DNA of 64,000 bases from Elusimicrobia bacterium GWF2_62_30 (GTDB lineage: Bacteria; Elusimicrobiota; Elusimicrobia; Elusimicrobiales; UBA9959): contig MGUK01000084.1 in the NCBI GenBank assembly GCA_001799995.1, forward strand, positions 1 through 64,000. Reading direction: 5' to 3'. Of the stretch, positions 15,326-50,221 are shown one piece after another. The notes under the pieces were generated by a model that had not been told where the DNA came from, ran no database searches, and was given only the letters and a program-made list of their open reading frames with translations. Made by a program: the position numbers and the translations under genes. The stretch's first letter is position 1, and each line of letters begins with the position of its first letter.

Positions 15326-15370
15326 GCTGTTTCGAAGAAGCCTTCTTCATCGGGAGTGTATCGGGGTTTT

Positions 15371-15644
15371 CAGGATGAAGTTATAACCTACTTTGCGCAA
15401 CATCCCGAGGTAACATTTAGGTTCCACGTCCCCGCCCATCCTGGGATCGAAAAGGAGGTCCGATCTTATCCACGAGATGCCGCACGGTCGGCCACGAAGC
15501 GCGGCCCCGCACTGCTCCTTGCCGCGAGAAGGCCGTTCGCAGGGCTCCGGCACTATGCGCCGTCGCACCTGCTCCAAAGGTGTTCTGCATCTTATCAACA
15601 CCTCCTCTGCCCGGCCGGCCCCCAACAGGGCCTTACCCGGCCGC
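15371..15644 (-). repeat. R2 dispersed repeat, copy A
   Basis: Homologous to 38791-39067 in the opposite orientation. The block 15491-15606 differs from 38833-38948 at one base in 116, while the flanking parts are diverged. Read on the minus strand it contains a perfect 7-bp hairpin (AGGTGTT/AACACCT). The 15371-15410 edge resembles the sequence following the recombinase relic at 39053. Open frames through it are not convincing as genes. It fills most of the 660-base gap between 15236 and 15897. Confidence 0.8.
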
Positions 15645-15677: not shown

Positions 15678-15756
15678 ACTTAAATTTAACCTAAAAATAG
15701 AACCTAAAATAATTTGGACAGCCCTCGCCATATACGCTAACATATCTATGCAAGGG

Positions 15757-15816
15757 TCCGGAGACAGCTCCGGAGGTTTGGAATGGTCGGGCCGCCATTC
15801 CGGTTTAAACTACCGG
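15757..15816 (+). promoter_or_regulatory. Structured leader upstream of the Ca/Na antiporter
   Basis: Consecutive inverted repeats: TCCGGAG/CTCCGGA (15757-15763, 15768-15774), GGAATGG/CCATTCC (15780-15786, 15795-15801), and CCGG/CCGG around TTTAAACTA. In RNA they would stack as hairpins about 80-140 bases before the 30-codon leader frame. I could not match it to a known riboswitch class. Confidence 0.35.
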
Positions 15817-15896: not shown

Positions 15897-15989
15897 ATGC
15901 CCAAAAATAATGACGAAACCCCCCGGCACGACAAAGCCGGTGGCAATAGAATCCGGCTGGGGCACTATTCTGCTCAGCCGAGAACTTAA
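15897..15989 (+). CDS. 30-residue leader peptide coupled to the antiporter gene
   Basis: ATG at 15897 with a GGAGG site 4 bases upstream opens a 30-codon frame (starts MPKNNDETPR, ends SAQPRT). Its TAA shares bases with the antiporter's ATG (TAATG, 15987-15991), so ribosomes finishing the leader can restart on the antiporter, which has no good site of its own. The peptide is hydrophilic and basic without a membrane segment. It may exist only to set translation of the transporter; whether it has its own function is unknown. Confidence 0.55.
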   Translation: MPKNNDETPRHDKAGGNRIRLGHYSAQPRT

Positions 15990-38616: not shown

Positions 38617-38790
38617 AATTGCGGCGGACGGCTTTTCCTCCCCAAACCCACCCCTAACCCAGGGAAAGTCGTCCGCCCCTGATTTTGTAGCAAGAGAACA
38701 GACGAAAGGTGTTCTGCGGCTTATAACAGAAAGATTGATGGGCGCGGGAAATAATTTTCTGCATTGTACGGACGCCTGCGGCGGACGGGA

Positions 38791-39067
38791 GCGGCCCGGT
38801 AAGGCCCAGTTGGGTACCGGCCGGCCGCGCATAGGAGGTGTTGATAAGATGCAGAACACCTTTGGAGCAGGTGCGACGGCGCATAGTGCCGGAGCCCTGC
38901 GAACCGCCTTCTCGCGGCAAGGAGCAGTGCGGGGCCGCGCTTCGTGGCCACGCCTGCGACGACATCTCGCGGATAAGATCCCCATACCGCAGCTTATACG
39001 GCTTGCTGGCGGTATTTATTAGATGACCTCAGGATGTTGCGCAAAGTAGGTCTTAATTTCATCCTGA
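38791..39067 (+). repeat. R2 dispersed repeat, copy B
   Basis: Reverse-oriented homologue of 15371-15644; block 38833-38948 is 115/116 identical. Contains hairpin AGGTGTT (38836-38842)/AACACCT (38855-38861). It abuts the recombinase relic ending at 39053, overlapping its last codons, and fills the gap 38617-39072 together with about 170 bases in which nothing was recognised. Confidence 0.8.
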
Positions 39068-39202
39068 TAGGCCCGCCAAATTTTCTTCTCGGAAAATTTG
39101 GCACAATTTAAATCCGCTAGTCCGGCTAGCGCCCGCAGTTTCTCCGCCGGAAAATTAAGTTTTAATTTTATTTTCTTCCCGCCAATGATTAAATGCGAAC
39201 CG
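39053..39202 (-). pseudogene. 3' remnant of a second serine recombinase gene
   Basis: Read on the minus strand this encodes 49 residues (GSHLIIGGK ... KKIWRAYQDGN, stop) aligned with the C-terminus of the intact recombinase at 39351 (GSNLIIGGK ... KKIWRG). 39073-39184 is identical to 40728-40839 in reverse complement, whereas the codons just beyond differ synonymously and by substitution, showing it comes from a related but separate copy. Everything upstream of the last 50 codons is gone. Confidence 0.65.
39073..39184 (+). repeat. Left arm of perfect 112-bp inverted repeat
   Basis: Exact reverse complement of 40728-40839. The two arms face each other across the recombinase gene, 1,543 bases apart. 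The outer end of each arm carries CCCGCCA on one strand, equal to the 3' end of tRNA-Asp. Confidence 0.9.
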
Positions 39203-39291
39203 AATTATTGTCCTTATGGCCGCCGGTGCGGCCGGCCCAGCGCTGGTGCGCCTGGCCGGCCTTACCCGCGGCGCGGAGTTGAAGAATAGCA

Positions 39292-39333
39292 CTTAAGGCC
39301 GGTTCAGCCCTGCTGGGCAAAACCGTCCTTAAG
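39292..39333. promoter_or_regulatory. Nested hairpin before the recombinase gene
   Basis: CTTAAGGCCGGTT (39292-39304) and AACCGTCCTTAAG (39321-39333) pair with one mismatch; the loop holds a second stem GCCC/GGGC (39307-39318). It ends 3 bases before the AGGGGAGG ribosome-binding site of the recombinase, so it could control translation or be a recombination site. Confidence 0.5.
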
Positions 39334-39350
39334 AGCAGGGGAGGCAAGGT

Positions 39351-40874
39351 ATGGAAAAGTCTAATATGCGGTATTTCCTGTATGCGCGCAAGTCCACGGA
39401 CGAGCCGGACCGGCAGATCCTTTCCATAGAGGCGCAGCTCGCTGAACTCCGCGACTACGCTAAAAAGAATGGTCTCGCCATAGCCCGCGAGTTCATCGAA
39501 AGCAAAACCGCCAAGGAGCCGGGCCGCGACATGTTCAACGAGATGGTCGCTGGCCTTGAGCAGGGCGCAGCCCAGGGCATAGTTGCCTGGCACCCTGACC
39601 GGCTCGCGAGGAATAGCATTGATGGGGGCCGCTTGGTCTACTTAGTGGACACTGGTAAGCTTTTAGAGCTAAAGTTTCCTACCTTCTGGTTTGACCCCAC
39701 GCCGCAGGGCAAGTTCATGCTGTCTATCGCTTTCGGCCAGTCCAAGTACTACGTGGACAACCTCTCGGAAAACGTAAAGCGCGGTATTCGCCAAAAGCTG
39801 CGCAATGGGATTTGGCCCTCATGGGCGCCGATGGGCTACATAAACGACCTGGCCACCCATACAATATACGTTGATAAGGAGCGCGCTCCAGTTATTAAAA
39901 AGGCCTTTGAGCTTTACGCTACCGGGAATTACGCCATCCTTGAAATCCGGGACATGGTAAACAGGTCCGGGCTTCGCGGGCGCAAGCTTCATAAGCCTCT
40001 GTCCGTGTCCAACTGCCACTATATGCTACGGAACCCTATCTATTATGGGGTTATGCGCTATTATGGCGAGGTCTATGAGGCCAAGCACAAGCCCATAATC
40101 TCCAAGGCGCTCTTTGATAAGTGCCAGGAGATGCTTAAAAACAAAAGCAAGCCCAAGACTAAAACTCTATTGCCTTATGTTTACCGAGGTGCTTTCCGTT
40201 GCGCCTCTTGCGGTTGCTACATCACCACCGAGACGCAGAAGGGCCATAAGTACCTGCATTGCACCAAGCGTAAGCAGCCCTGTACGGAGCTGTTTGTCCG
40301 TGAAGAGGAGATAGATCGCCAGGTGCGCGAAATCCTAAAAGGAGTTTCCTTACCCCCGGCCCTGGCCGCGGATGCTCTTAATAACATCAATAAGGAGAAT
40401 TTGAGCGCGGCCCAGGCCGGGGCAAGCACCGCACAAAATCTGCGAGATAAAATAGATATCCTTACGAAGAACATGAACGCTCTTTTGGACATGATCCTTA
40501 GCGGGATGCTAACGCAGGATGAATACGCCCAAAAGAAGCGTTCATGTATAGAAGAGAAAAAGGAATGTGAAATGAAACTCGCAGCTTTTGAGCGGGAGGG
40601 GAGTAAACGGTTCGAACCGCTGATAGGGTTTTACAAACTAGCAGTTCACGCCGGAGAGTCCGCAGTTTCCGGAAACCCCGAGGAGAACCTGCAAATATTG
40701 AAAAATATCGGTTCGAACTTAATTATAGGCGGGAAGAAAATAAAATTAAAACTTAATTTTCCGGCGGAGAAACTGCGGGCGCTAGCCGGACTAGCGGATT
40801 TAAATTGTGCCAAATTTTCCGAGAAGAAAATTTGGCGGGGTCGACGGGATTCGAACCCGCGGTCTTCGCCTTGA
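39351..40874 (+). CDS. Large serine recombinase (resolvase/invertase type)
   Basis: A 507-residue site-specific recombinase. Catalytic resolvase domain about 1-145 (YFLYARKSTDEPDRQILSIE, with the nucleophile Ser in ARKST; GIVAWHPDRLARNSIDGG); recombinase domain about 165-270 (VKRGIRQKLRNG, GYINDLATHTIYVDKERAPV, LRNPIYYGVMRYYG); Zn-ribbon about 280-330 (FRCASCGCYIT, HCTKRKQPC); coiled coil and C-terminal helices. GGGGAGG precedes the ATG. The last 13 residues (RGRRDSNPRSSP) are antisense tRNA-Asp sequence, so the native C-terminus was replaced when the gene came to lie against the tRNA; a relic at 39053 preserves another ending. A perfect 112-bp inverted repeat flanks the gene. Confidence 0.93.
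   Translation: MEKSNMRYFLYARKSTDEPDRQILSIEAQLAELRDYAKKNGLAIAREFIESKTAKEPGRDMFNEMVAGLEQGAAQGIVAWHPDRLARNSIDGGRLVYLVDTGKLLELKFPTFWFDPTPQGKFMLSIAFGQSKYYVDNLSENVKRGIRQKLRNGIWPSWAPMGYINDLATHTIYVDKERAPVIKKAFELYATGNYAILEIRDMVNRSGLRGRKLHKPLSVSNCHYMLRNPIYYGVMRYYGEVYEAKHKPIISKALFDKCQEMLKNKSKPKTKTLLPYVYRGAFRCASCGCYITTETQKGHKYLHCTKRKQPCTELFVREEEIDRQVREILKGVSLPPALAADALNNINKENLSAAQAGASTAQNLRDKIDILTKNMNALLDMILSGMLTQDEYAQKKRSCIEEKKECEMKLAAFEREGSKRFEPLIGFYKLAVHAGESAVSGNPEENLQILKNIGSNLIIGGKKIKLKLNFPAEKLRALAGLADLNCAKFSEKKIWRGRRDSNPRSSP
40728..40839 (-). repeat. Right arm of perfect 112-bp inverted repeat
   Basis: Exact reverse complement of 39073-39184. Lies inside the 3' coding end of the recombinase and includes the last seven bases of tRNA-Asp (TGGCGGG on the plus strand). 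Confidence 0.9.
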
Positions 40875-40911
40875 CAGGGCGACGTGTTAAACCAGGCTAC
40901 ACCACGACCCC
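40833..40911 (-). tRNA. tRNA-Asp (anticodon GTC)
   Basis: Acceptor GGGGTCG/CGACCCC, T8-G9, D stem GTGT/ACAC, anticodon stem TCGCC/GGCGA with loop CTGTCAA, T arm GCGGG-TTCGAAT-CCCGT (one G-T pair), discriminator G and encoded CCA. The serine recombinase frame reads 42 bases into it in antisense, marking this tRNA 3' end as the junction of the mobile region. Confidence 0.92.
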
Positions 40912-41003
40912 GCGGTGATTTGTATAGGATATCAAAAAAACAGAACTATTTCTACAGGGTTGTTGTTCCGCCCCGACGCGCACGCCGGGGCGGAGCAGCA
41001 GGT

Positions 41004-50034: not shown

Positions 50035-50221
50035 AAAAGAAGAAGAGCGCGCCGAGCAGGGACAATATCCAGGCTATATACCCACACTATGGAGGGGAAC
50101 ACCTGGACCACCTGCAACGGGCTTACCGCTCTTCAAAAATAGTATATCACAGGGGCTGAAGACCGTCAATGGGTAGATGAGAATTACCAGGAGATGCGCT
50201 GTTCTGCTATCTGGGATGGGC

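Follow-up and report, generated by a model that had tools for sequence, protein, structure and literature searches.

Why is a serine recombinase gene enclosed by two nearly identical inverted arms, one of which abuts a tRNA gene? The question is raised by the window analysed here, a stretch of 64,000 nucleotides of Elusimicrobia bacterium GWF2_62_30. A preliminary description had reported a perfect 112-bp inverted repeat around the gene and regarded it as a candidate self-inverting switch at a tRNA. A repeat search of the window gave arms of 132 nt with 97% complementarity, and base-by-base comparison placed the exact part at 39072-39183 and 40728-40839. The length of 112 nt thus held, whereas the coordinates 39073-39184 were off by one, since base 39184 is a mismatch. 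The diverged homologue just beyond the exact part is the inner 20 nt, and there are four mismatches in the whole 132 nt. Outward, the match ends at 39072 and 40839; the right arm continues into tRNA-Asp and the left arm into a different sequence. We judge an exact inverted repeat of 112 nt in 64 kb to be far beyond chance.

Anatomy of the island and its integrase

The enclosed gene, by its domains, appears to encode a large serine integrase. The Pfam Resolvase catalytic domain (4e-20) and Recombinase domain (1.3e-15) were found in its product, in agreement with the earlier assignment, and a zinc ribbon scored 23.9 bits, just below the cut-off of 25.3. The YARKST region is present and its S15 is invariant in 17 aligned rows; we take this region to be the conserved N-terminal catalytic serine motif of large serine integrases. 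Among named NCBIfam models the nearest were CcrB, XisF and CcrA, none of which came close to its cut-off.

When the minus strand is read outward, the left arm stays in frame past the core and continues into the tail RAYQDEIKTYFAQHPEVI and a stop codon. The right arm continues past the core into GRRDSNPRSSP, which is read from the antisense of the tRNA. The structure predicted for the native tail was of too low confidence to be informative (mean pLDDT 60, residues 493-514 below 50). The tail and the DNA beyond it (T) recur in the opposite direction about 23 kb away in the window (Table 1). The reading frame of the left arm extends into this tail, and the T region that follows recurs at the far ends of islands, which is why a stand-alone transposon bounded by 39072 and 40839 was rejected.

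Table 1. Coordinates of the features of the island in the window
Feature	Position	Strand	Description and basis
T1	15362-15644	+	diverged second T copy, 81% identical to T2, core degenerate; likely far end (attL-like) of an island of ~25.5 kb
T2	38739-39071	-	other attP half with conserved non-coding extension; 83-93% match to the T copies of other islands
Native C-terminal tail RAYQDEIKTYFAQHPEVI and stop	39019-39074	-	read outward from the left arm; in-frame translation, same tail in relatives
Left arm A2	39072-39203	-	reversed copy of the last ~44 integrase codons and core; part of a putative intact second attP; repeat search, translation, base-by-base comparison
Leader	39204-39350	+	left arm to start codon, hairpin-rich; sequence
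Large serine integrase gene	39351-40874	+	507 aa, last residues read from antisense tRNA-Asp
Right arm A1	40708-40839	+	integrase 3' end fused to tRNA (attR-like junction); repeat search, base-by-base comparison
Core TGGCGGG	40833-40839	+	antisense of the tRNA 3' end with CCA, elsewhere written TGGCG(G); common to both arms, left copy at 39072-39078 (-)
tRNA-Asp (GTC)	40833-40911	-	integration target

From the in-frame left arm and the T copies we therefore drew the order flank, core, T1, cargo, T2 (reversed), core, A2 (reversed), leader, integrase, A1, core, tRNA. In this layout A2-T2 is predicted to be an intact attachment site (attP) in reverse, just upstream of the integrase, and integration would have produced the two junctions A1-tRNA and flank-T1. 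Each arm is one half of an attachment site of a genomic island, a point absent from the preliminary description. We regard this anatomy, as read from the sequence, as highly probable.

The attR-like junction of the window island is clear, and the candidate attL at 15362 has a degenerate core. Clear junction pairs were found in other islands (G018, G022, G026 and L250). In three Elusimicrobiota islands with both copies on one contig (G018, G022, G026), T1 and T2 are 95-99% alike over 339-364 nt. The two T copies of the window are only 81% alike, and with its degenerate T1 core the window island may no longer excise. In some relatives, for example G002 and G005, tRNA-Asp is present without an adjoining arm. 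A second element of the same genome (contig C41, locus L006) lies at tRNA-Glu and has an inverted repeat that is 99% identical over 109 nt.

Recurrence of the layout

Relatives of the integrase at E <= 1e-30 were found in 52 of the 101 genomes searched. The best 80 of 270 places in the genome collection lie in Elusimicrobiota, in many lineages of Patescibacteria and in single MAGs labelled Caldisericales and Nitrospira, labels that may be wrong; the viral collection gave one integrase locus. The working set comprised 89 loci: the window, L006, L041-L080, and 47 of the 81 collection loci (these best 80 places and the viral one) that were left after 34 duplicates had been dropped. Both arms could be compared in 66 loci, the 23 others being cut by a contig end, and 63 of the 66 have the inverted repeat. 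The three without a matching pair are L066 (chimeric), L229 (native tail on the left, diverged arms) and L239 (nothing recognisable), and they count against the explanation that we prefer below.

The targets called by ARAGORN in the 89 loci were tRNA-Ser (35), tRNA-Glu (14), tRNA-Gln (10), tRNA-His (7), tRNA-Asp (6) and tmRNA (2), with none called in 15. The two tmRNA cases, L080 and L210, have the 3' end of tmRNA as target instead of that of a tRNA. At L055 several bases of the right-arm tRNA-Glu are missing after the core and ARAGORN did not call it, which reflects either a damaged tRNA or an assembly error.

The inverted repeat was found in none of 20 distant relatives (24-36% identity), two of which are cut by contig ends. 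In a quick tree, which is unrooted and has some long end branches, one group of 89 rows (SH-aLRT 100) holds all inverted-repeat loci, and the 20 distant relatives fall outside it. The smallest example is an element of ~4.1 kb on an 867-kb Patescibacteria contig (L250), with the order T1, a few small genes, T2, A2, integrase, A1, tRNA-Gln. Its T copies are 99% identical over 140 nt and its arms 98% over 94 nt; the small genes were recognised as NUDIX-like and HTH-like by eye only. The recurrence in very different bacteria suggests that the layout is a built-in part of island movement.

This recurrence also bears on the origin of the repeat. The assemblies are drafts, mostly MAGs, and contigs often end at the arms, as would be expected if the identity of the arms were an artefact of assembly, a source of error that the preliminary description had named. 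The same architecture is, however, found in dozens of other assemblies, so a local assembly error is ruled out for the window, and it lies inside long contigs of unrelated assemblies, for example of 163, 184, 420 and 867 kb. The probability of an artefact is therefore negligible, and chance or misassembly as the origin of the inverted repeat was rejected. In titles and the beginnings of abstracts of the open-licence PMC literature, no serine integrase flanked by inverted attP copies was described, which is weak evidence of absence.

Signature, upkeep and orientation of the arms

In serine integrases the outer motif, bound by the zinc domain, lies 5 bp nearer the centre in attB than in attP, according to the available text of PMC3783163. 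TTCGAA-like motifs (up to one mismatch) were surveyed to either side of the core wherever 45 bases could be read on each, which was the case in 44 loci. In 29 of them the distance between TTCGAA and core on the native side exceeds that on the tRNA side by exactly 5 bp, an offset that appeared in only 0-3 loci when the native side was shuffled (200 shuffles). Such a +5 offset is what distinguishes attP from attB in serine integrases. The offset is -5 in L232, which is reversed; in L214 and L231, which have native tails on both sides, the offsets include 0, and those of L216 are unrelated. The motif is missing on one or both sides in 11 of the 44 loci, including the window, whose own T side lacks it; the signature thus holds for the family, not for the window. 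In several lineages (L044, L053, L061, L068 and L076) the left arm contains an inserted palindromic hairpin at its inner end, between GTTC and GAAC. The gene counterpart of this site is the uninterrupted GGTTCGAAC, and its TTCGAA is the same motif as marks the att half-sites.

Arm identity within loci has a median of 98.4%, and identity to the nearest right arm of another locus a median of 92.7%. Of 63 loci, 51 have a left arm whose best match is the right arm of the same locus; six are ties, and in six another right arm matches better (L054, L214, L220, L222, L231, L232). The arms thus evolve in concert, which upholds the earlier proposal that exchange or conversion keeps them alike. Differences between the arms comprise 49 synonymous and 160 nonsynonymous changes, as expected without coding constraint, 17 gaps that are all frameshifts, and four stops. 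The left copy is therefore rarely if ever the coding end: exchange overwrites it, and it is not kept intact as a coding sequence. These data speak against crossovers being common within the arms and would fit gene conversion or rare exchange at the core.

Orientation is strongly biased. The right arm runs into a tRNA or tmRNA in 76 of the 89 loci (L055 and L069 assigned by eye), and the gene itself has the native tail in five (L050, L078, L214, L231, L232); the junction is not visible in seven and unclear in one (L216). The left arm has the native tail in 49 of 53 readable cases and abuts a tRNA in four: L066, L218, L232 and L233, of which L233 has just a 3' fragment of a tRNA. Five further left arms are deleted, masked or other (L048, L062, L078, L216, L239). 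L232 is the clean reversed case; with an identity of just 83% over 60 nt, its arms are unlikely to have been confused by an assembler. L231 is a tandem array on one contig, in which the tail of the first integrase comes from T1 of the next element and the integrase of the second element abuts tRNA-Ser; it was rejected as a flip because its native tail is a tandem-array junction. L066, which lies between tRNA-Ser and tRNA-Glu, is weakened as a clean proof of flipping since its integrase is Ser-type in the 5' part and Glu-type in the 3' part, either as a real recombinant or through misassembly. Paired integrases resembling tandem arrays were also seen in two genomes of the same order (G075, G077). 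Comparison across loci suggests that the integrase module may be invertible.

The self-inverting switch of the preliminary description would require the integrated module to flip often between orientations in one population. The perfect arms and the presence of both orientations in the family (L232, L218, L233, L066) speak for it, and that part of the proposal stands. We nevertheless consider the switch improbable, given the single orientation of 49 of 53 left arms, the missing coding constraint on the left arm and the chimeric nature of L066. As worded, with inversion of a promoter, it was rejected: leader and gene both lie between the arms and would move together, so no promoter on/off effect would result. 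No sigma-70-like match was found in the leader. A flip would instead change the C-terminus of the integrase (native tail or tRNA-encoded residues) and the arm that adjoins the tRNA.

It is also conceivable that the reversed copy does nothing, being the product of an accidental ancestral attP duplication whose copies are kept alike by RecA gene conversion. The neutral left-arm differences, with their frameshifts and stops, and the strong orientation bias agree with this. Such a copy could easily have been lost, as the distant relatives do without it, yet it has been retained with near-constant arm length across phyla, and we regard such a relic as unlikely.

Integration, known systems and history of the island

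The best explanation as a whole, to which we assign a probability of about 0.6, is a tRNA-targeting island whose integrase gene contains attP in its 3' end and which has a reversed second attP as a spare part. The island would insert into tRNA 3' ends by means of its large serine integrase. The core of attP would lie between the last ~44 codons (A) and the native tail of ~20 residues with ~330 bp (T); integration would join A to the tRNA and leave T at the far end, so that the integrated gene would lose its native C-terminus. With the reversed A2-T2 upstream, the A arms would lie in inverted orientation on either side of the integrase, and the T copies likewise on either side of the cargo. The arms would be homogenised by exchange between the copies, either as gene conversion (RecA) or under the action of the integrase, and the same exchange might occasionally invert the integrase module or allow use of the other attP. 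Either event would give back a native-tailed integrase, a spare part for an integrase that truncates itself, and the usual tRNA-tailed form would be the quiet state.

The anatomy, its recurrence, the concerted evolution, the motif offset, the tandem arrays and both orientations across the family support this explanation. The spare-part function itself is tentative, somewhat short of an even chance. The points against the explanation include the small number of left arms that abut a tRNA, the neutral differences, frameshifts and stops of the left arm, the divergence of T1 from T2 in the window, and the arm of ~132-133 nt, which is longer than an attP half-site of 25 bp (PMC3783163). Exchange between two attP sites is, in the available text of the same source, unusual for serine integrases, which counts against the explanation as a whole; attP x attP recombination is reported there for the LI and A118 integrases and for CcrA/CcrB (PMC3783163). 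It is possible, if rather doubtful, that a widespread bacterial element family exists whose serine integrase truncates itself and retains a reversed spare 3' end with attP, and in which exchange between inverted attP copies restores the native C-terminus, chooses the integration end or amplifies an excised circle as the 2-micron plasmid does.

Archaeal suicidal (SSV-type) integrases target tRNAs, as the integrase studied here does. Flp is a tyrosine recombinase that acts on a free plasmid. In phage Mx8, integration changes the element gene that holds attP, intP, and we know of no reversed second attP flanking the gene in Mx8 or in phage BPs. BPs, a phage with integration-dependent immunity, resembles our island in that integration changes the element gene holding attP (PMC4557955). 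In the SSV type the attachment site likewise lies within the integrase gene and integration alters the gene (PMC8371274). These integrases are, however, tyrosine recombinases, called exclusively archaeal, and their gene is split in two (PMC8371274), whereas the window integrase has serine recombinase domains and only a tail of ~20 residues is lost. The available text of PMC8371274 mentions no reversed spare copy, which is present here, and describes chimeric integrases made by homologous recombination. Large serine integrases of the LI/A118 type and Ccr of SCC elements are alike in domains, attP/attB asymmetry and the 5-bp motif shift (PMC3783163); here, in contrast, attP overlaps the integrase gene, is present twice and reversed around it, and the targets are tRNA or tmRNA 3' ends.

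The yeast 2-micron plasmid (Flp/FRT) is alike in having a recombinase gene and two inverted repeats that hold the target sites (PMC3147054), whereas here the sites are attP copies of an integrating island. An excised circle of our island would likewise hold the recombinase gene between two inverted sites, and integrase action on them could lead to double rolling-circle replication and isomer exchange; the LI, A118 and Ccr recombinases are able to carry out an attP x attP reaction (PMC3783163). We consider such amplification very improbable, since none of 15 short contigs checked for excised circles had terminal overlaps and no replication gene was identified among 10 scanned cargo proteins of the window.

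An integrase with attP in its own gene poses a puzzle: how can the element leave after insertion has altered its integrase gene? For archaea, rescue by integrases from outside and by homologous recombination is discussed (PMC8371274). The inverted-attP family, which the searches recovered from many genomes of Elusimicrobiota and Patescibacteria (for the genome collection, among the best 80 of 270 places), would carry a spare integrase end in cis. Its strict anatomy of A, T and tRNA makes attP and attB readable from sequence, so the spare-part idea is directly testable, and the family offers leads for new site-specific integrases.

The window island seems to be composite. Positions 38706-40952 are 94.6% identical to G022, the chromosome to the right (41053 onward) only 77-81%, and the integrase-proximal cargo at 33659-37555 matches another genome, G018, at 80% in the same orientation, which points to exchange of integrase modules between islands. 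T1 resembles G018 (88-89%) and T2 resembles G022 (93%). Most simply, an older island acquired its present integrase module by a swap, for example via a tandem array, which would explain the difference between T1 and T2. Decayed integrase ends were found on the flank side of many flank-T1 junctions in relatives, including pieces of older integrase genes at L094, L106 and L133, a sign of repeated island accretion at the same tRNA.

The 10 scanned cargo proteins include two-component regulators, a Na/Ca exchanger, SpoIID/TPR, VTT and FGE-sulfatase proteins and a helix-turn-helix regulator; one had no match. Just inside T1, at 15754-15800 (+), an nhaA-I RNA match (Rfam, 49 bits, above gathering) lies upstream of the Na/Ca exchanger gene at 15989, so a candidate ion-linked riboswitch seems to travel as island cargo. 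A DUF3800-V RNA match (54.9 bits) was found outside the island at 50040-50136 (-).
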